Notes under the pieces: generated by a model
Database searches by the model: none
What the model was told of the DNA's origin: nothing
The model's input: only the letters and a program-made list of their open reading frames with translations
Made by a program: the position numbers and the translations under genes
Part shown: piece by piece, positions 1 through 31,757 of the stretch
Numbering within the stretch: position 1 is the stretch's first letter
How the letters are laid out: every line of letters starts with the position of its first letter
IMG/VR virus record: IMGVR_UViG_3300006409_000018
Span: 1 to 31,757 of that record
DNA: 31,757 nt
From: a virus
Strand: one strand, 5' to 3'

Positions 1-99
1 GTATATAGTAGGTCATTTCTCTCTCCCCGGCTTAATAACTGCTTTGATGATCGGGACTGGTTTTATCCGGTACTTCGCCATTAACAAGAATATTACTAA
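1..99. repeat. Left copy of 99-bp terminal direct repeat
   Basis: These 99 bases are identical to 31659-31757. A perfect terminal overlap of a typical assembler k-mer length is the usual sign of a circular (or circularly permuted) molecule, so the two copies are probably one locus. It holds the end of the PrsW-like gene and the first codons of the tail hub gene, which overlap by an ATGA when the ends are joined. Confidence 0.95.
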
Positions 100-8295: not shown

Positions 8296-8369
8296 TTGTC
8301 ACAAACGAAATTTCTGATAGATTTATATATTTTTGACACAATTTTTTATAATTGATAAAAATGACACAG
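8296..8369 (+). promoter_or_regulatory. Promoter and operators of the replication operon
   Basis: Upstream TTGTCACAA (8296-8304), then TATA box ATTTATATAT (8321-8330), TTGACACAA (8333-8341), TTGATAAAA (8352-8360; 19 bp on) and ATGACACAG (8361-8369; 9 bp on, overlapping the start codon). Transcription should begin near 8352, leaving a leader of about 10 nt. Confidence 0.7.
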
Positions 8370-9032
8370 ATGAAACCCGTACACGCCCACTGGATCGGGC
8401 GATACTACTGGTGCGCCCAATACTTCCTGTTGAGATTAGAGGGCCACCAACCAGACATCTCACAACGCCAATCCGTCATCAAAGGGAGACAAGTCGATGA
8501 GTGGCTTAAAACCCGGCCGAGAAGCGAGGGAGAAACAAAAATTCTTGAAAAATTAAATCAGTATCGCAATCCCGATACAAATGAGTTTCACAGAGACTAT
8601 CGTGACTGGGAGTTAATCGGGGACCCGGACGACTTCCTATTCGACTTCAAAAACCGCATAGTAATAATACGTGAATACAAAACCATCGCGGGATTCAACG
8701 CCGTATCAACCTATGTACTCGGCCCAGCATCCCTACAACTAAAAACCTACGCATACATCCTCCAACCCATATTCAAAAAACTCAAGTGGAAAGTCGCAGG
8801 ACACCACTACGTCGAATTCTACACCCGAAACGGAATATTCATCGACAGATACATAATCCCCTACGACATAGACGAATACCTAAAAACCCTCGACTACCTA
8901 TACCGCCTCACAAAAAAACAAGAAGAAATCATCCCCCCACAACGATGGAAATGCAAGTCATGTCCCCTGACAGATGTCTGCCCACTATTCCCCAGGCTCT
9001 GGCCCGACATCGAGGAGGGGATCCAGACGTGA
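8361..9032 (+). CDS. Cas4-like PD-(D/E)XK nuclease with Fe-S cysteines
   Basis: A 223-residue protein. Cys18 and the C-terminal Cys198, Cys201 and Cys207 (CKSC-x5-C) match the four cysteines that hold the 4Fe-4S cluster of Cas4/AddB-type nucleases. The nuclease core shows GDPDDFLFDF (Asp near 89-95), REYKT (Glu105-x-Lys107) and QLKTYAYIL (the Cas4/RecB motif 'Q---Y'). No cas1 or cas2 is nearby, so this is a virus nuclease and not part of an adaptation module; related enzymes are 5'-3' exonucleases used in recombination or replication end-processing. ATG 8361 follows the promoter distance; ATG 8370 is possible. It is the first gene of the replication operon and overlaps the next gene by GTGA. 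Confidence 0.82.
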   Translation: MTQMKPVHAHWIGRYYWCAQYFLLRLEGHQPDISQRQSVIKGRQVDEWLKTRPRSEGETKILEKLNQYRNPDTNEFHRDYRDWELIGDPDDFLFDFKNRIVIIREYKTIAGFNAVSTYVLGPASLQLKTYAYILQPIFKKLKWKVAGHHYVEFYTRNGIFIDRYIIPYDIDEYLKTLDYLYRLTKKQEEIIPPQRWKCKSCPLTDVCPLFPRLWPDIEEGIQT

Positions 9033-9499: not shown

Positions 9500-9798
9500 A
9501 AAATAAAGGTGTTCCCCGGGTACGCTGGATACTAAGTAAACACGCATTAAACATGTTATTCATCCCGATACGGGACTTCATACGCCAAACAAGTAAGGGT
9601 GTTTGCCTCAGTTATTATCGTGATCAAATCCCGGACATAGAGATCTACCTTGACAATATTTGGCGGTTGAGCCGTGGAGATCATAACCGGTTTATACATA
9701 TTCTATGCCGCACCTTTCTACATGAATATCTACATTTCCTTGGTGTAAGGGACGACAGGGAGATTAGGTGGATGGAGGAGATCATACATGCCTGGTAA
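9496..9798 (+). CDS. Minimal HExxH zincin-like protein
   Basis: A 100-residue protein with LHEYLHFLGV near residue 77, the HExxH zinc-metallopeptidase signature, followed by an acidic stretch DDREIRWMEEI that could supply the third ligand. The small size and the sequence before the motif (FIHILCRTFLHEYLH) fit the minimal-gluzincin type often found in phages and archaeal viruses. It overlaps both neighbours by 4-11 bp within the replication operon. The substrate is unknown; processing of a replication protein or of a host protein is possible. Confidence 0.6.
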   Translation: MKNKGVPRVRWILSKHALNMLFIPIRDFIRQTSKGVCLSYYRDQIPDIEIYLDNIWRLSRGDHNRFIHILCRTFLHEYLHFLGVRDDREIRWMEEIIHAW

Positions 9799-11416
9799 AC
9801 CTGATTTTAAGGTATTTCAAGGTATGGACCTTGAGATCCATGTATGGATCCTAAAAAAATGGCGGTTGAGGCTACGTATTTTTGACAGATTAATTAATGA
9901 GTATAAATCTGGTTATATCACAATCAAGGACCCCGAACAACTAAAGACAAAGATTTCTCGGGATAAATTTGGTAAGGTCATTTGGACAGAGGTTTTAAAC
10001 CAAGATAATGAACAACTTCTATTTCTCATAGATCTTTTAAACGAGGAATTAGAGAAAAGAAGGAAAAAACCAAAAAAATATGTTAAATTGGAGGAGAAAC
10101 AAGAGGTCGATACAGAAATTCTAGAAGACAGTTTATTACTATATAAAATTGTTGATGCAATACGTAAATTCCCGTTGGTCCGGGAGGATATAAATGCATT
10201 AACCACATTCCTAATCATTTTCTCAGGGCAAACAAGATATCCTATATCCGCTATAATCGAGGGGTTAAGCAGCACCGGTAAAAACACCATTCTCCGGGCC
10301 GTAGAACGGTTTTTCCCGGAGGAATGGATAGAATACTTCACCACGGCAACCCCCGAGGCAATAAAATATTTAGATCCAAATTTTAGGGGGACATTAATTG
10401 TGTATGAACAGGCGGGTATAACTAGTAATACGGGGGCTCTAGGGTTGAGAGCCATAGGTGAGGGGGAAAAAATAAAGACAATTCTACCCATTAGGGACGA
10501 ATCGGGTAGGATTGTATTGGCGGAGCATGAGACTAATGCGCGTAATTTTATTACTACTACCACAAAAGTAGATATTGAACCTGAACTCGCGACAAGAATA
10601 TTTACATTAAGCACTGATGATTCACCTGATGCCACACGGAAGGTTGTTGAAACGGAACTGGATTATGCATGGACCCCCAAAACCCTTAGATCCATTCTAT
10701 ATGATGAAAAGCCGCTTGTCGAGCCTGATTTAATAAAGCAGGTTCTCCGGGCGGTAAATTGGAGCGAGTATGAAGTCATCACAAAACTTCCGCCTTTTCT
10801 TGATAATTTACGGTTCCTCACTCCTCGGCTACGGAGGGATGTAAAGAAACTTGTTAATCTCATAAGGATACTTGCGATTTTGAATTATCGTCGTCGGACT
10901 CTTGTCCGTGTTGGTGAACACCGATATATTATTGCTGGTTTGGAGGATATCTATGTTGCATTGAGAATTGGAAACCATATTTTTAGGTCTACGTTTACTG
11001 GGTTGACGCGGCGGTTACAGGAGTGTTTTGAGATGTGTATGAAGGTTGCATCTGTAGATGTGGATAAACCTTTTACGGTTAAGGATGTGCAGAAGATGTA
11101 TCTTGCTGAGAATAAAACTAAGATTGGGTATACAACTGTTTATCGTTATCTTGAACAACTTACTGATTTAGGGTATTTATTTAAAGATAGTAGTGGCCGA
11201 CAGAATCAATATAGTATTGCACGTATGGATATAACTGATATTCAAATTTCTATCTCAAAAGAGTTTGCAGATGAATATTTAAAGCATGTTTCCGAACGGT
11301 TAAGAGAGTTTGAAGCATTAAAAAATCTTTATGGACAGGAAGTAGAGTTTATACAGATCAATCTCGATGAGCGGGTGTTTGATCCTTTTACTGGGGAGGA
11401 GGTGGTTTTCTCGTGA
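9788..11416 (+). CDS. Replicative ATPase (phage/plasmid primase-helicase-type P-loop)
   Basis: A 542-residue protein. Walker A is GLSSTGKNT (about residues 159-167). A Walker B-like strand GTLIVYEQAG follows at about 201-210, a sensor strand FITTTT at 254-259, and ELATRIFTLSTDDSP at 266-280, where Arg270 could be the finger. This set matches the ATPase domain seen next to CHC2/Toprim primases in phages and mobile elements. The N-terminal 120 residues are charged and helical with no recognisable primase domain. The C-terminal part (about 415-470: VKDVQKMYLAENKTKIGYTTVYRYLEQLTDLGYLFK) looks like a winged helix. It is probably the replication initiator or helicase, loaded at an origin; the iteron-rich site just downstream (11418-11540) is a natural candidate. 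Confidence 0.75.
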   Translation: MPGKPDFKVFQGMDLEIHVWILKKWRLRLRIFDRLINEYKSGYITIKDPEQLKTKISRDKFGKVIWTEVLNQDNEQLLFLIDLLNEELEKRRKKPKKYVKLEEKQEVDTEILEDSLLLYKIVDAIRKFPLVREDINALTTFLIIFSGQTRYPISAIIEGLSSTGKNTILRAVERFFPEEWIEYFTTATPEAIKYLDPNFRGTLIVYEQAGITSNTGALGLRAIGEGEKIKTILPIRDESGRIVLAEHETNARNFITTTTKVDIEPELATRIFTLSTDDSPDATRKVVETELDYAWTPKTLRSILYDEKPLVEPDLIKQVLRAVNWSEYEVITKLPPFLDNLRFLTPRLRRDVKKLVNLIRILAILNYRRRTLVRVGEHRYIIAGLEDIYVALRIGNHIFRSTFTGLTRRLQECFEMCMKVASVDVDKPFTVKDVQKMYLAENKTKIGYTTVYRYLEQLTDLGYLFKDSSGRQNQYSIARMDITDIQISISKEFADEYLKHVSERLREFEALKNLYGQEVEFIQINLDERVFDPFTGEEVVFS

Positions 11417-11417
11417 T

Positions 11418-11540
11418 CTTTTCAATTCGAGTGAAAAGTTACTGGAAAGTAAATGAAAAGTTTAGGCGGGTTATTTTGGGTGATTTGGCTCAGGAGAACG
11501 CCCCAATTTCCGAAAAGTATCTTTTCAACTTTTCACCGCG
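11418..11540. repeat. Inverted-pair site A with TGAAAAG iterons (origin or recombination candidate)
   Basis: A non-coding stretch between the ATPase and the next gene. TGAAAAG occurs at 11432 and 11454, and its complement at 11418, 11521 and 11529. The left arm 11441-11469 (29 bp) is a perfect inverted copy of 23173-23201, and the right arm 11493-11535 matches 23107-23149 inverted with about 7 mismatches in 43. The 23-bp centre (11470-11492) is in the same orientation as at site B, hence flipped relative to its arms. Placement next to a replication ATPase suggests an origin. Confidence 0.7.
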
Positions 11541-12383: not shown

Positions 12384-12613
12384 TAGAAAAAGTCTTAGAG
12401 CGAACCCGTAAACGCGGTAAAAAAACGATAAAGGAGCCGCCGAGCCAAACACTCATCTGGATATTCAAACTGCTGATAGTATTTTTCATTGGCCTCGTGT
12501 TTTTGGAGGCATTATATATTGTGTTGACGGGTGAGTTGAATCCGCAGATTTGGAGTGGAATAATGACGATAGTAGGGGCTATAATAGGGTTAATAGGAGG
12601 CCGACGACTATGA
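12380..12613 (+). CDS. Small two-span membrane protein (holin-like candidate)
   Basis: A 77-residue protein with a basic N-terminus (ERTRKRGKKTIKE) and two hydrophobic segments, about residues 25-48 and 56-74 (WSGIMTIVGAIIGLIGG). The starting GTG overlaps the previous stop. Size and topology fit a holin, but archaeal holins are poorly defined and no lysin is seen beside it, so this is only a suggestion. It overlaps the methyltransferase start by ATGA. Confidence 0.55.
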   Translation: MIEKVLERTRKRGKKTIKEPPSQTLIWIFKLLIVFFIGLVFLEALYIVLTGELNPQIWSGIMTIVGAIIGLIGGRRL

Positions 12614-13434
12614 CAGAAAAACGGATGATATTGAGGTATATGGGTAGTAAGAGTTTTTTGGCGGATTGGATTATAAGTCATTTTCCTAGTCATGATTGTT
12701 TCGTTGATGTATTCGGCGGGGGGGGGTCGTTGATAATTAAAAAACCACCGAGTAAGATAGAGGTATTTAATGATATTGATGAGGACCTTATTAATTTCTT
12801 TAAAGTTTTGCGAGAAAAACCACATTATCTATTCGGCGCTGTTTATTATTTACCTTACAGTAGGAAATTAAGAGAAGAATTAAAAAAAATATATTATAAT
12901 CGTGATGAATGGTTGTGTTTAGATGATATATCACGTGCTGCATATTTCTTTTATTTATGTAATTTGTCTATGAATGGTGTTTTTCAATCTGGGTTTAGGA
13001 CTTCAAAAGTAAATAAAAACGAGGCTGTGGGGTATAATAAGAGAATTTTTAGGATATTTGAAGTAGCGGAGCGATTTAAATCTGTTATTATTGAGAATCT
13101 TGATTTTGAGAAGTGTATAAAAAAATATGATACAAAAAAAACATTATTTTACTGTGACCCCCCCTACTTTGATGATATAAAAATAACAAGAAGAAGATAT
13201 TATCGCCATCGTTTTTCTACCGAGGATCATAAACGGCTCTCAAATATATTAAATCAAATAAGAGGTATGGCTTGTGTCAGTTATATGTATCATCCCATTT
13301 TAGAAAAATTATATCCTCGAGAAAAATGGATCTGGAAAGAAAAACAATGTAAAACATTCACACGCCCAACACCAGCGGGAAAACGTTCTTCCCGTATTGA
13401 ATTGTTAATTATGAATTATCGAGTTGATGTGTGA
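12610..13434 (+). CDS. Adenine-N6 DNA methyltransferase (D12/Dam class)
   Basis: A 274-residue protein. The start ATG 12610 overlaps the preceding stop. It begins RYMGSKSFLADWI (K/MGSK motif, residues 11-14), then the AdoMet-binding DVFGGGGSL (33-41), NDIDEDL (54-60) and catalytic DPPY (183-186), the order of D12-class adenine methyltransferases that modify GATC-like sites. It probably protects virus DNA from host restriction or marks it for packaging or replication; no restriction enzyme is adjacent. A G9 run encodes the FGGGG motif and is therefore functional. It is more A/T-rich than its neighbours, possibly a recent acquisition. TGATG couples it to the terminase. Confidence 0.9.
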   Translation: MTEKRMILRYMGSKSFLADWIISHFPSHDCFVDVFGGGGSLIIKKPPSKIEVFNDIDEDLINFFKVLREKPHYLFGAVYYLPYSRKLREELKKIYYNRDEWLCLDDISRAAYFFYLCNLSMNGVFQSGFRTSKVNKNEAVGYNKRIFRIFEVAERFKSVIIENLDFEKCIKKYDTKKTLFYCDPPYFDDIKITRRRYYRHRFSTEDHKRLSNILNQIRGMACVSYMYHPILEKLYPREKWIWKEKQCKTFTRPTPAGKRSSRIELLIMNYRVDV

Positions 13435-15995: not shown

Positions 15996-16520
15996 TTATT
16001 TATATTTTTTGGGGGATTCATACCACGCAGGCCGCAGCGTCTTCCTATACACCATCAACCCAAGACGCTCCAACTCCCTAATAAACTGACGGGTCTTCCA
16101 CAACGGCGGCTCAGGCAATCTATTATAATAATTATCATACCCGACAAAGACGAATTCAGGCGAAAGATTATATATCATGGTAAGGAGAGTAGGTAATTCA
16201 AAAACAAGTATAGGTTCAACACTAACAAATTTCCGTGGATGCCTTAACATCCGCATCGCATTATAACGATTATGTGGTAAAGGAGCATCAGTATATATCC
16301 GTGGATAATTAGTTTCAAGGGTAACCCCTAAGATCATGTTCTCAGTAAATAGGTCTTGGAATAACAGGTATCTCTCGGGATTCTTGGTTAAAAATAGGAA
16401 TGTAGCCTTACTACCACTATCACGTATTGCATCCAAGACTTTTTTTATCCATTCATCTGGAACCCAGTATCCCCATAAATCCCCCATGCTGGTTACAAAT
16501 ATAGTGCCGCTCTTAGGCAC
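15996..16520 (-). CDS. Gp37/Gp68-like protein (DUF5131), N-terminally shortened
   Basis: A 174-residue frame opening at GTG 16520. It matches the C-terminal two thirds of the phage Gp37/Gp68 family: IFVTSMGDLWGYWVPDEWIKKVLDAI, FLFLTKNPERYL, MILGVTLET, KFVSVEPIL and FVFVGYDNYY. Full-length members start with a WNP-x-TGC-x-C-x2-C cluster region that could bind iron-sulfur; that region is absent here. The same frame is open upstream to 16553 and encodes PPRLWPERLKK, which also fits the family, and joins by one base shift to a short ORF with a good ribosome site (16513-16593). So the gene is either frameshifted, broken or shifted during translation. Function of the family is unknown (radical-SAM-like suggestions exist). 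Confidence 0.65.
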   Translation of the reverse strand: MPKSGTIFVTSMGDLWGYWVPDEWIKKVLDAIRDSGSKATFLFLTKNPERYLLFQDLFTENMILGVTLETNYPRIYTDAPLPHNRYNAMRMLRHPRKFVSVEPILVFELPTLLTMIYNLSPEFVFVGYDNYYNRLPEPPLWKTRQFIRELERLGLMVYRKTLRPAWYESPKKYK

Positions 16521-17076: not shown

Positions 17077-17298
17077 TTATTCACCTACTCGTTGGGCGAT
17101 AAACATTATTTTATACAATTTGTTTTTGTCTTTGAATTTGAATTCAACTGTGGTTGTAGTGACCTTTAGAACTATCCCTTTTCTCTGCAGTATCTTATTG
17201 AAGTCATCGATTAATCCTTGTTCTTGTGCCTCGTTGAATCCCTCGACGATCTTCCATATCAATTCACGATACAATATGTCTCTATCCTGAGAAAACAA
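17077..17298 (-). CDS. Small protein, unknown
   Basis: A 73-residue protein: a helical first half (YRELIWKIVEGFNEAQEQGLIDDFNKIL) and a beta-hairpin second half (GIVLKVTTTTVEFKFKDKNKLYKIMFI). It begins 17 bp inside the end of the previous gene, so it is coupled to it. No family recognised. Confidence 0.6.
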   Translation of the reverse strand: MFSQDRDILYRELIWKIVEGFNEAQEQGLIDDFNKILQRKGIVLKVTTTTVEFKFKDKNKLYKIMFIAQRVGE

Positions 17299-17644
17299 TT
17301 GTTTTCACCCCGGTTGGTTTATAATTATGTTTTAATATCTCGTTTTTTTCGAGATCGGTAATCATCTTATGAAGCAATTTTATCTCTGTGTTATCTATAA
17401 AATAATTAGTGTTTGCCTTCCAAACAACATCGAGATTTGCGCCCTTTAATACATTAATTATCACAAGCCTAGCACTCGGTGGATCCTTCGGGTCAAAGGC
17501 TATAATAATGAAGTCTCCACGTTTCATTGTAGGATGTAAACGATCACGTATTTTCTCTAGAAATTCTGGGTAACTACCTGCTTGCACAACCGATATCTTC
17601 TTATACATACCGCTATACCACCTATACACAACAAACTTAAACAA
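17282..17644 (-). CDS. Small protein, unknown
   Basis: A 120-residue alpha/beta protein (MFKFVVYRWYSGMYKK, RGDFIIIAFDPKDPPSARLVIINVLKGANLDVVW, then a helix LLHKMITDLEKNEIL). It overlaps both neighbours (8 and 17 bp). I see no catalytic motif. By location in the accessory operon it may be a host-interaction factor. Confidence 0.6.
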   Translation of the reverse strand: MFKFVVYRWYSGMYKKISVVQAGSYPEFLEKIRDRLHPTMKRGDFIIIAFDPKDPPSARLVIINVLKGANLDVVWKANTNYFIDNTEIKLLHKMITDLEKNEILKHNYKPTGVKTIVFSG

Positions 17645-17972
17645 TAGTCCTCACCTCCACAGGAATTTTTACACCATTCTTAACAAGCAGGTTATATGCC
17701 CGGCGTCTGTGCTGCCGTCCCCTGCCCCGGCTGCATGGCTGCCGCCCGATAATTAGGTACCAGATTATTAGGTGGGGCTCGCTGCCCCGGATGGCCTGTG
17801 CGAGGCTATGGCGCTGAAGGGCTTGGCGGGTGTGGAAGTATTTTTTGCAGATGGGGCAGTAGTCGGCGTTGTATATGTCTGGGTGCTTGGCTCTTATGTG
17901 GATGAATAATCCACCGACGTTATCGGATTTGAATTGGCAGCCGAGGAAGGGGCACTCGATTTTCTCATACAT
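17637..17972 (-). CDS. C2H2 zinc-finger protein
   Basis: A 111-residue protein. Finger one: Cys7-x4-Cys12 ... His25-x4-His30 (CPFLGCQFKSDNVGGLFIHIRAKH). Finger two: Cys39-x2-Cys42 (CPICKKYF) with His55 and possibly His67. A very basic tail follows (SRGRGRQHRRRAYNLLVKNG). Such fingers are typical of archaeal virus DNA-binding proteins. It overlaps the upstream gene by 8 bp. Probably a transcription factor acting on virus or host DNA. Confidence 0.75.
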   Translation of the reverse strand: MYEKIECPFLGCQFKSDNVGGLFIHIRAKHPDIYNADYCPICKKYFHTRQALQRHSLAQAIRGSEPHLIIWYLIIGRQPCSRGRGRQHRRRAYNLLVKNGVKIPVEVRTIV

Positions 17973-18435
17973 CCCAAATCACCTTATAAACAAATAACAA
18001 TATGCCTAATCCAACCCCCACCACAAATGCGAGGTTGGATATAACCATTCCATTCTGGATATAAACATCACGAGGAGTATTCAAAATGAATAACCCCTCG
18101 TAGATGCCATAAACTAGGTTGCGTGTGAAGATGGGGAAGGCGGCGGCCGCCTCTTCCACATCATCCCACAAATCCCAGATAATAATTATTAGCATGATTA
18201 TTGCTGCACCGATCCCCCCACCAAAACTGACTATGAGGGGGCCGAGGGGATGCGTGGGCATCTGGGTCCAGACTACCCCTGCGCCGAATGGGGTTTTGAT
18301 TATGTATCCGTCGCCGCCGAGTAGTCGGAGTATGGTTAGGTGGCTCCACTCGTGTATGCCGGTGTCAACAAATAGAAATATTGTTAGGCAGAATGCGTAT
18401 TCAGCGATGGATATAAAAAGTTGTTTGGGGTTCAC
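17965..18435 (-). CDS. Membrane metalloprotease-like protein (M50/HExxH)
   Basis: A 156-residue protein with a hydrophobic first segment (about 8-25) running into GIHEWSHLTILRLLGG: His28-Glu29-x2-His32 in a membrane setting, as in M50 (site-2 type) proteases and their DUF3267-like relatives. Further membrane spans lie about 73-98, 112-125 and 134-153. The family's later Asp ligand is not clearly placed, so activity is uncertain. It overlaps both neighbours in the operon. With the PrsW-like gene this is the second membrane protease of the virus. Confidence 0.62.
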   Translation of the reverse strand: MNPKQLFISIAEYAFCLTIFLFVDTGIHEWSHLTILRLLGGDGYIIKTPFGAGVVWTQMPTHPLGPLIVSFGGGIGAAIIMLIIIIWDLWDDVEEAAAAFPIFTRNLVYGIYEGLFILNTPRDVYIQNGMVISNLAFVVGVGLGILLFVYKVIWDV

Positions 18436-18662
18436 TTCTGAACATTCACCTCATTTAATTTTAAGTATAATTTTATTACCTCGATTTTCTGCATAACATA
18501 GTTCATATCTATATAGTTGGTGCGGGTTAATTCCCGTAGTAATCCGGTTAGGGCATAAGTATATTGATTATCATTAGACTCATAGAATCTATCAAATAAC
18601 TCCCTGATAATCCTGAGGGTGTTCTTTTGTCTTTGATCTAGTGTGCCCTCTGGGATCTTCAT
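18432..18662 (-). CDS. Small helical protein, unknown
   Basis: A 76-residue helical protein (QRQKNTLRIIRELFDRFYESNDNQYTYALTGLLRELTRTNYIDMNYVMQKIEVIKLYLKL). It starts 4 bp inside the end of the Csx20-like gene (ATGA) and ends 4 bp inside the next, so it is tightly coupled. It may partner the Csx20-like protein, by position only. Confidence 0.6.
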   Translation of the reverse strand: MKIPEGTLDQRQKNTLRIIRELFDRFYESNDNQYTYALTGLLRELTRTNYIDMNYVMQKIEVIKLYLKLNEVNVQK

Positions 18663-19018
18663 TCCGTCACCTCGACAAACTTCACGTGCCGGAATACACT
18701 GATTTTCTTTACAGATCCATCTGGTTGGACTATTTCTTTGGCTTCCCGGTGGGTAGTGGCGATGTATAATGGAACGTTAAAATCGGATGCAAATCTATAT
18801 GCGGCGATGAAAAATCGGAAATCGCCTTGAACCCATAATGCATCAAAAACCTTTCCTTCGACAATGTTAAGAAATATATCGATGACATCTTCCATCTCTA
18901 GTTTTGGGTCGATGATGGGATGTTTTATAAATATTGTTTCTTGGTAACCCATCTTGGTAAGTTGCTGTAACTGTTCCTCGGTTGGTTCGTGGTTTAAGAT
19001 TATTAGGATGCTTTTCAT
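18659..19018 (-). CDS. csx20: Csx20-like protein, candidate viral ring nuclease (anti-type III CRISPR)
   Basis: A 119-residue protein. The sequence shows, in order: ILNHEPTEEQ (7-16), FDALWVQGDFRFF (58-70), VPLYIATTHREAKE (82-95), PDGSVKK (99-105) and SVFRHVKF (107-114). From memory this is the signature order of the CRISPR-associated Csx20 family ('nH-lT-eQ ... vlvQGDFg ... iPvY-TTkRe--e---DGs ... vFkHV-F'). Csx20 has been reported as a ring nuclease that cleaves the cyclic oligoadenylate second messengers of type III CRISPR systems. No cas genes surround it here; it is the second gene of an early-type accessory operon, the position where anti-defence genes sit. The inference is that it blunts host type III signalling, like AcrIII-1 of other archaeal viruses. 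Confidence 0.75.
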   Translation of the reverse strand: MKSILIILNHEPTEEQLQQLTKMGYQETIFIKHPIIDPKLEMEDVIDIFLNIVEGKVFDALWVQGDFRFFIAAYRFASDFNVPLYIATTHREAKEIVQPDGSVKKISVFRHVKFVEVTE

Positions 19019-19179
19019 GGCTGGATCATCTCCTCACATTCAAAACAAATTTCCATTTCTTTCTCTTCCTCTGTTTCTAGGTTGCATCCGCAGAATCGGC
19101 AGTGTTGAATTGGTGGGTATTCGGCTTCGAGAAGGGTTTGGTGTGTTTCATATCCTAGTGGTCGTGTCAAACTCATCAT
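19015..19179 (-). CDS. 54-residue zinc-binding protein
   Basis: A short gene of 54 residues with CRFCGC (Cys27, Cys30) and CFEC (Cys45, Cys48), a four-cysteine zinc site separated by acidic sequence (ETEEEKEME). The ATG is 9-10 nt after the predicted transcription start and it is the first gene of the leftward accessory operon; its stop overlaps the Csx20-like ATG (ATGA). Role unknown. Confidence 0.75.
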   Translation of the reverse strand: MMSLTRPLGYETHQTLLEAEYPPIQHCRFCGCNLETEEEKEMEICFECEEMIQP

Positions 19180-19180
19180 T

Positions 19181-19222
19181 TTTACTCAATATAATTGTAT
19201 TGTTACTAAACTATATAAATGT
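19181..19222 (-). promoter_or_regulatory. Promoter and degenerate operators of the leftward accessory operon
   Basis: Read leftward: TATA box CATTTATATAGTT (19222-19210), then TAGTAACAA (19208-19200) and TTGAGTAAA (19189-19181), exactly 19 bp apart, then the ATG at 19179. The copies are weaker matches to TTGANACAA, but spacing and position are the same as at the other promoters. Confidence 0.6.
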
Positions 19223-23102: not shown

Positions 23103-23215
23103 GAAATGGAAAGTTGAAAAGATATCTTTTGGGAATTACGGGGTTCTCCGGCGTTATTTTAGGTAATCTGAGCCGCCTAAACTTTTCATTTACTTTCCAG
23201 TTATTTTTCAGGGTT
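23103..23215. repeat. Inverted-pair site B (partner of site A)
   Basis: Inverted relative to site A. 23173-23201 is a perfect 29-bp inverted match to 11441-11469, and 23107-23149 matches 11493-11535 inverted. The centre 23150-23172 reads GGCGTTATTTTAGGTAATCT..., in the same plus-strand sense as site A's centre, so it is flipped relative to the arms. It holds TGAAAAG at 23115 and its complement at 23182. It lies just before the head operon promoter. Confidence 0.7.
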
Positions 23216-30070: not shown

Positions 30071-31674
30071 CCATAATCAGCAAAACCATATTTACTATCA
30101 GCGTCATCATAGATGTAGGTGCCACTAGTTTTTGTCTTGACTGTGATGCTGTCACTCTGGGTAACCGGATCCGTAACAGTAACATATTTATTCAACTCAG
30201 TCCGCAACACATCAATATCCTTATGCTTAATTTTCCTGATCTCACTATAGAACTCCCGTAGAACCTGTTCGAGATACGCCTTCTCCGGACCAAGATCCAG
30301 TTCAACCGTTACATACTTGTTTACCCCACCCTCCAACTCTATCCTAACGGCTTTTACTAGATATTGGTTATTCACGTTAAACTTAGTGCTGTTTATAGTT
30401 ATCATCTCACCCGGCCTAGGCACAGAAGCAGAATAAACAACTATAGAACCGAAATCACTCCTAATATTCTTACGCTCATTAAGAATCTGTGTAGCGAGGG
30501 TCCTTGCGGTACGCCTATCCTTTATACTCTCATCCCGCACAACAATCTCCCTGCCACCATACAAACTAACACTATCCTCATCACTAACCTTCACAATCAC
30601 CGGCACACCATAATACGTTTTATACGCACCCGCCCCCGTCCCCACCGTCCAATTCACGCCATCCGTGGAATACGCATATTCACCACTAACACCATAATAC
30701 CACCTGTAATAATTACTAGCATCCCCCGTAAGATCAAGAACAATCCAATACTTCTGCCCCGGAATCAACTGTGCAGAGGCGCTGGTCGGGTACCACCCCG
30801 CAGCACCGAGGTAGTTGCGGTTGTAGGTGAAGTAGACGAGTACCTCGCCGGTTGGCTCGCCATTGTTGTCCCTAACTATTTTGCCTGTTAGGTCTGGTGG
30901 TAAACCTATTTTTTCTAGGTATAGTGATATTTGCCGTAGGCCTCCTCTGTCGGGAGTGAAACTCGTTGCCAGGTAGTATTGGTTTGTTTGGTATGTGCCG
31001 CCCGTCACATCGGTTTGTATTTGGTCTTCGAAGTAGTCTTCGCTGCCAACTACATATACAATGTTTTTCAGTTCTTCGAGGGCTTGTATGAAGCCGACGC
31101 TGGGTTTAAAGTCTGTATCTGTAAAAACCAGCCCCGAGTCTCTGGATCCTTTTATTCTGAGGTTGATGTTGTTGTTGGTGTCTGGCTGGAGGTATGTTGC
31201 TGTTAGATCCATAATAGTTTTGAGGGCGTCATAGAGAGGGACATAATTAAAACTAATATTATCTAGAGTAATATCTGTTTCGTCGTATATGGGGGTCCAA
31301 GAAGTATACTTGGCTATTAGATCCTTGAAGATGTTTTCGGCCTGCCGGTATTGATATAATTCAGCCACTATCTTGTTTAGGGCTGTGGTGAAGAATTCTT
31401 CCCGGCCCTCCAGTCTAACCCTTTTCCTTAGGTTGCGGCCGATGATATTCTCGATTTTATCAACTACATATATATTGCGTGGTTGGCTTGGAGGGCTACT
31501 CGAATCTAAGTACAAAATAATTTTGTCTCCCGGGGAGATCTGGTTGAGTATATCCGTTTTTGCCTCGGCGCGAAACCTTATCAGATCCATACGTTCCTCT
31601 ACGGTGAACTGGTGGAAGTAACTTGTTAGATCTATGGCACCGGGCGTCTTCTCTATCCGTATATAGTAGGTCAT
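30067..31674 (-). CDS. Tail hub protein with inserted adhesin domain
   Basis: A 535-residue protein, last of the leftward tail operon across the circle junction. The N-terminal part (1-215: TVEERMDLIRFRAEAK, GDKIILYLDSS, YVVDKIENIIGRNLRKRVRLEGREE, LYDALKTIMDLTATYLQPD) fits phage hub proteins of the gp27/gpD type. An insert at about 235-350 (RGGLRQISLYLEKIGLPPDLTGKIV...LIPGQKYWIVLDLTGD) resembles domains that bind surfaces, and the final part returns to hub-like LATQILNERKNIRSDFGSIVVYSASVPRPGEMITI followed by a helix. Role: closing the tail tip and binding the host. There is a sharp codon switch near 30780. Confidence 0.72.
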   Translation of the reverse strand: MTYYIRIEKTPGAIDLTSYFHQFTVEERMDLIRFRAEAKTDILNQISPGDKIILYLDSSSPPSQPRNIYVVDKIENIIGRNLRKRVRLEGREEFFTTALNKIVAELYQYRQAENIFKDLIAKYTSWTPIYDETDITLDNISFNYVPLYDALKTIMDLTATYLQPDTNNNINLRIKGSRDSGLVFTDTDFKPSVGFIQALEELKNIVYVVGSEDYFEDQIQTDVTGGTYQTNQYYLATSFTPDRGGLRQISLYLEKIGLPPDLTGKIVRDNNGEPTGEVLVYFTYNRNYLGAAGWYPTSASAQLIPGQKYWIVLDLTGDASNYYRWYYGVSGEYAYSTDGVNWTVGTGAGAYKTYYGVPVIVKVSDEDSVSLYGGREIVVRDESIKDRRTARTLATQILNERKNIRSDFGSIVVYSASVPRPGEMITINSTKFNVNNQYLVKAVRIELEGGVNKYVTVELDLGPEKAYLEQVLREFYSEIRKIKHKDIDVLRTELNKYVTVTDPVTQSDSITVKTKTSGTYIYDDADSKYGFADYG

Positions 31675-31757
31675 TTCTCTCTCCCCGGCTTAATAACTGC
31701 TTTGATGATCGGGACTGGTTTTATCCGGTACTTCGCCATTAACAAGAATATTACTAA
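31659..31757. repeat. Right copy of 99-bp terminal direct repeat
   Basis: Exact copy of positions 1-99. Removing one copy gives a circle of about 31,658 bp and joins the tail hub gene (start at 31674) directly behind the PrsW-like gene. A genuine short direct terminal repeat on a linear genome is possible but less likely. Confidence 0.95.

Follow-up and report, generated by a model that had tools for sequence, protein, structure and literature searches.

A divergent Csx20 homologue in a head-tailed virus without a type III CRISPR locus as a candidate ring nuclease

Introduction

What would a stand-alone Csx20-like protein do in a virus that has no type III CRISPR locus to regulate? The question is raised by one gene in the virus record IMGVR_UViG_3300006409_000018, all 31,757 bases of which were analysed and are called the window here. 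To our knowledge, only a few viral ring nucleases have been studied so far, namely AcrIII-1 and AcrIII-2. Phage genomes are also known to encode Crn4 homologues, whereas work on phage Csx20 has not gone beyond counting its occurrences. Csx20 cleaves cyclic tetra-adenylate (cA4) in vitro, and the cellular enzyme converts it to linear products, with a weak activity on cA3 at high enzyme level (PMC12409355).

Results

The csx20-like gene lies in a minus-strand run of small overlapping genes

Frame 1 of the plus strand is closed by many stops between 18659 and 19018, and the coding ORF is on the minus strand; a preliminary description, made from the letters alone, had given no strand. The translation confirmed the 119-residue protein described there, with the segments LNHEPTEEQ, LWVQGDF, YIATTHREA, PDGSVKK and SVFRHVKF all present in that order. 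The operon of small accessory genes that had been described was likewise found, as a minus-strand run of small overlapping genes extending from 19179 down to about 15500, or 14930, in which the csx20-like gene is the second. Most genes of the run overlap by 4–17 nt (19015–19179, 18659–19018, 18432–18662, 17965–18435, 17637–17972, 17282–17644 and 17077–17298). The features nearest to the gene are the following.

19212–19219, minus strand: TATA-like box TTTATATA, 33–40 nt ahead of the ATG of operon gene 1
19015–19179, minus strand: operon gene 1, Cys-rich protein of 54 aa with two CxxC pairs, 4-nt overlap with csx20
18659–19018, minus strand: csx20-like gene, 119 aa, ATG start, candidate cA4 ring nuclease as judged from sequence
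18432–18662, minus strand: 76-aa protein, downstream of csx20, 4-nt overlap with csx20
17965–18435, minus strand: 156-aa protein of the same operon, containing extended hydrophobic segments as well as an HEWSH motif, described from sequence only
17637–17972, minus strand: C2H2 zinc-finger protein of 111 aa in the same operon (Pfam zf-C2H2_4, E = 4.8e-6)

The TATA-like box, read from 19219 to 19212, may be the promoter of the operon. Family profile searches gave no significant match for the 54-aa and 76-aa proteins, and relatives of the latter were absent from the fetched loci. The 76-aa gene, earlier suggested as a partner, was rejected as a dedicated partner of csx20 because it has no relatives in the fetched loci and no family match, and the 4-nt overlap, the one thing that joins them, is of a kind found operon-wide. 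A partial-length DUF5131 protein (15996–16520) is encoded at the distal end of this run of minus-strand genes.

The 119-aa protein is a divergent homologue of Csx20

The NCBIfam profile CAS_Csx20 (NF040559) matched the 119-aa protein by hmmscan with an E-value of 3.2e-15 and 56.6 bits over positions 2–123 of 124, and three Csx20 models of PADLOC matched it as well, the best being PDLC01384 (E = 3.9e-15, positions 1–125 of 128). The profile check proposed in the preliminary description thus gave a significant and full-length match to Csx20. As 56.6 bits fall below the curated equivalog cut-off of 70 bits, the protein is to be read as a divergent viral Csx20 homologue and not as a CAS_Csx20 equivalog. 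In the same check, neither the window nor any of seven related viral records matched the AcrIII-1 profile, DUF1874 (PF08960), and the identity of the protein as AcrIII-1 was rejected on this ground. Pfam and PHROGs had no match for it and no name was obtained from either; a search by sequence for a solved Csx20 relative returned a single weak match, which was unrelated.

A cellular Csx20 profile was built from four proteins, encoded on a plasmid of Arcobacter cloacae (five genes ahead of the csm2 gene in a III-A locus), on a Persicobacter plasmid (in a type III operon, between the RAMP genes and csx2) and in two Asgard genomes, in one of which a larger Csx1-like protein carries Csx20 as its C-terminal domain. 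The match of the window protein to this profile is far above chance, because it scored 42.7 bits against 11.2 for the best of 2,000 shuffles of its own sequence and against at most 6.7 for any other protein of the window. The residues H10, Q16, G65, R91, G101, F109 and H111 were invariant in 18 diverse homologues and all are kept in the window protein, as is D100, which was nearly invariant in the same set, and K105, which was also invariant in an alignment of 25 sequences. The region around WxxIPP, which cellular Csx20 conserves, is shortened.

When viral contigs were scanned with a pattern, at least five ORFs scored as Csx20 proper (L055, L058, L076, L144 and L125, of which L076 and L144 are alike). 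In the maximum-likelihood tree the window protein was placed in a clade of eight (support 99/97), whose other members are the four cellular Csx20s and three further viral proteins, and its sister was the protein of L058 (98/97). Judged by these sequence comparisons, the 119-aa protein is a divergent but clear Csx20 homologue, and the earlier assignment was borne out by profiles, motif residues and tree, together with the CARF-like fold that was predicted.

The protein is predicted to have a small CARF-like fold

The AlphaFold2 model of the window protein, made with the alignment of 25 sequences, had a mean pLDDT of 96.7. Its elements follow the order E-H-E-H-E-H-E-E and end in two long adjacent strands. 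In CARF proteins a reverse turn takes the place of the last crossover (PMC13148439), and the two adjacent C-terminal strands of the model are therefore an expected CARF feature. When candidates from Foldseek were re-aligned, the best structural match of the monomer model was Cdn1 with cA3 (Z 8.2, rmsd 3.0, 98 residues aligned), followed by the cyclic oligoadenylate receptors Csm6 (Z 7.4), Can2 (7.2), SAVED-CHAT (7.1), Cam1 (6.9) and Cad1 (6.7); the Crn1 proteins Sso2081 and Sis0455 scored 6.3 and Csa3 6.2. The top matches are mostly CARF/SAVED receptors of cyclic oligoadenylates with non-CARF Rossmann-like proteins interspersed, the Z-scores of the CARF matches are middling, and Foldseek alone was weak for this model. 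With such an admixture and so weak a Foldseek result the fold alone would not prove function. The structure prediction called for in the preliminary description accordingly placed CARF/SAVED proteins among the top matches, and a small CARF-like domain fold is predicted.

The virus genome is complete and encodes no Cas10

The first and last 99 bases of the record are identical. Outside the operon, the following features bear on the completeness of the genome and on its Cas-like content.

1–99, plus strand: direct terminal repeat, copy 1, identical to 31659–31757
31659–31757, plus strand: direct terminal repeat, copy 2, identical to 1–99
8352–9032: Cas4-like PD-(D/E)XK nuclease of 226 aa, fitting the PADLOC Cas4 models, about 10 kb from csx20

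The identical ends indicate a complete, terminally redundant genome (circularly closed or permuted), so the absence of a type III locus applies to the whole virus. A profile search of this complete genome found no Cas10 of the Csm1 or Cmr2 type, and the Csx20-like protein therefore cannot regulate a type III system of the virus's own. When PADLOC was run on the 42 window proteins, the sole Cas-like families besides Csx20, among the 25 of 32 families listed, were Cas4 models. No other acquisition genes were seen beside the Cas4-like nuclease.

Genes for a terminase, a portal, an SU10-like capsid protein, a tape measure and an integrase of the tyrosine type mark a head-tailed virus. The head-tailed virus free of a type III locus that had been described was thereby recovered, with structural genes present and Cas10 absent. 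The best relatives of the portal include the haloarchaeal tailed viruses HSTV-1 (E = 4e-34) and HRTV-28 (E = 4e-29), those of the capsid protein include HHTV-2, and HRTV-27 provided the sole relative of a 542-aa protein at 9788–11416; the terminase is nearest to Thermus and Meiothermus phages and then to HGTV-1. The IVYWREL formula, which estimates growth temperature from amino-acid composition and is rough for viruses, gave about 91 °C. The composition, the haloarchaeal-virus relatives, the TATA-like box and the C2H2 zinc-finger gene together suggest a hyperthermophilic archaeal host. The archaeal nature of the virus, which the preliminary description had taken as given, was in this way kept as probable from composition and relatives, while a capsid-protein scan of the genome collection found no provirus or lysogen. 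Scanning viral contigs with the terminase gave no match, and the sole sister virus found (L019, capsid protein 76%) is a 7-kb fragment that ends short of the csx20 site.

Some other features of the genome were recorded. A solitary D12-class adenine methyltransferase, possibly for restriction protection, is encoded at 12550–13434, directly upstream of the terminase gene. A 104-nt element is present in two oppositely oriented copies (11432–11535 and 23107–23210, 77% alike). The copies carry short terminal inverted repeats of the TGAAAAGTT / AACTTTTCA type, and each folds more favourably than its shuffled versions (z about −2.2); like the rest of the window, which had no tRNA or Rfam match, they matched nothing in Rfam, and they are candidates for a small mobile element or a structured RNA. 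The ORF at 11453 starts inside one of these copies, so its true start is probably later.

Csx20 has a large family of distant viral relatives

The pattern used on the viral contigs was built on the invariant positions of Csx20 and gave at least 119 stretches (pattern loci L039–L157). At least 110 ORFs belong to one family, which has LNLTQHxATPEQ at the N terminus, MIGGAPYLM in the middle and then RES...PDGSVKK...FRHxGF, and which keeps the invariant H, Q, G, R, DG, K, F and H positions of Csx20. Three examples are as follows.

L101, 4135–4524: LNLTQH family member
L099, 289–714, in a 129,908-base record: LNLTQH family member
L033, 4568–5080: LNLTQH family member

The members examined matched nothing in Pfam and nothing significantly in PHROGs, while their matches to PADLOC Csx20 were weak to moderate (E from 5e-10 to 1e-4). 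The family forms its own clade in the maximum-likelihood tree (100/98), and its profile gave the window protein 38.9 bits. The model of a member (pLDDT 95.9) is not specifically CARF, as its best matches were aspartate racemases (Z 7.7) and CARF/SAVED proteins scored 4.8–5.7. On a Heimdallarchaeota contig, a cas6 gene (PADLOC Cas6b, E = 2.6e-54) is followed 76 nt downstream by a member of the family. A conserved neighbour for the family was sought and rejected, the commonest neighbours being ordinary phage genes that occur in at most 10 of 109 loci.

On sequence grounds this is a large unannotated viral family distantly related to Csx20, and it is more novel than the Csx20 of the window. We put forward only tentatively, as a rather doubtful possibility, that Csx20 represents a single branch within a far larger superfamily of viral proteins, with the window protein as an archaeal-virus member of the CRISPR-linked branch. 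If cyclic nucleotides are bound or cleaved by the LNLTQH proteins as well, genes for signal removal of the Csx20 type would be among the commonest counter-defence genes of tailed viruses, and a very common unannotated viral gene would become interpretable.

Discussion

The homology of the protein to Csx20, its invariant residues, its predicted fold, its location in a virus and the missing type III locus together make it likely that the window encodes a virus-borne ring nuclease of the Csx20 type, which drains the cA4 of the host. Such an enzyme would probably work as a homodimer, with cA4 predicted to be held between the subunits at a site for binding and cleavage made from H10, Q16, G65, R91, D100/G101, K105, F109 and H111, and it would cut cA4 to short linear oligoadenylates without a metal. 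A type III CRISPR complex of the host would make cA4 on meeting viral RNA; the viral enzyme, expressed from the small-gene operon and probably early in infection, would drain it, and the toxic effectors of the host would stay off. As the virus has no Cas10, the removal of host cA4 would be the natural role. Even for AcrIII-1, a natural role as an anti-CRISPR has been disputed (Martinez-Alvarez et al, 2025, cited in PMC12751052), and those who described AcrIII-2 considered their own case plausible but unproven (PMC12751052).

The protein might instead bind cA4 and hardly cleave it, a behaviour known from the orphan Csx15 of Pseudomonas fluorescens. Some stand-alone CARF-fold proteins are sponges of this kind (PMC13148439), and the divergent profile score and the shortened middle region would agree with such a role; against it, the window protein keeps all the family-invariant residues, His and Arg included, and the Csx20 assayed in vitro was an active enzyme (PMC12409355), so a sponge is considered unlikely. 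The cleavage of cA4 could also serve a lysogenic or carrier state, in which the type III response is toned down and the carrier cell survives, rather than a lytic anti-CRISPR function. The tyrosine integrase fits this, cellular ring nucleases are known to tune and not to abolish immunity (PMC12409355), and the dispute cited above over AcrIII-1 points the same way; the capsid-protein scan of the genome collection, however, found no lysogen, and we give this explanation little probability.

That the protein acts on another nucleotide signal, for example that of CBASS, would suit the wide spread of its distant relatives in viral contigs, since type III CRISPR may be missing from some of the hosts concerned, and the assayed Csx20 did cut cA3 at high enzyme level; yet the window protein belongs to the cellular, CRISPR-linked Csx20 clade and not to the widespread viral one, and we regard such a target as quite improbable. 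The many Rossmann-like proteins at Z 5–7 in the structure comparison could in principle reflect a chance resemblance of an unrelated small Rossmann-like protein, but the sequence profile, the invariant residues and the tree speak against it, and given the shuffle control it is very unlikely. A Csx20-type ring nuclease directed at host cA4 is the reading that we prefer.

The window protein is not the first viral Csx20, and the preliminary description, which knew of no viral example, has to be corrected here, since Hoikkala et al (2025, PMC12409355) reported four phage genomes with Csx20 among 28,114. What is new is the probable host domain and the phylogenetic position of a viral Csx20. A Csx20 that belongs to the cellular clade but is encoded by a tailed virus of a probably hyperthermophilic archaeon indicates that this off-switch was taken over by viruses whose hosts differ widely, and the protein offers a compact and probably heat-stable candidate enzyme for assays.

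Comparison with known systems

The four phage Csx20s of Hoikkala et al (2025) resemble the window protein in being virus-borne, stand-alone homologues. Our search of 50,697 phage records found four Csx20s, three of them in Fusobacterium phages and the fourth in a phage from a spring metagenome, which are perhaps the same four; of these, two from Fusobacterium phages and the one from the spring phage were placed in the tree and, unlike the window protein, lie outside the cellular-Csx20 clade. Such genes are not confined to viruses, as the Azotobacter chroococcum plasmid pAcX50f, a mobilizable plasmid, encodes between toxin-antitoxin pairs a hypothetical protein (L036, 7710–8105) that matches residues 83–117 of the window protein, the C-terminal motif region, at 63%. 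In one Asgard genome (G087; L037, 1489–3369, minus strand) a Csx20 domain stands C-terminal on a Csx1-like protein of more than 620 aa and, by its sequence, is a natural fusion of effector and off-switch, for which the known Csx1-Crn2 fusion is a parallel.

AcrIII-1 (DUF1874), the Crn2-like viral ring nuclease, shares with the window protein the proposed viral removal of cA4 but belongs to another protein family. AcrIII-2, from a hyperthermophilic Aquificae virus (PMC12751052), is likewise a stand-alone cyclic oligoadenylate-binding domain of a thermophilic virus that is related to a CRISPR effector, and its structure 9r8s aligned with our model at Z 5.8; it differs in being a SAVED domain of 230 aa related to CalpL and not a Csx20 (PMC12751052). 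The Crn1 proteins Sso2081 and Sis0455 are similar as stand-alone CARF-fold cA4 ring nucleases (Z 6.3, with 106 and 101 residues aligned), whereas they are cellular, larger (178–188 residues) and about 14 and 11% identical over the aligned part. From Csx20 itself (NF040559, PADLOC) the window protein differs in its location in a virus without a type III locus, in its length (119 aa against a model of 124 positions), in its score below the curated cut-off and in the shortened middle region around WxxIPP; the two have in common a full-length profile match, the invariant residues, a CARF-like fold as predicted and a place in the same clade of the tree.
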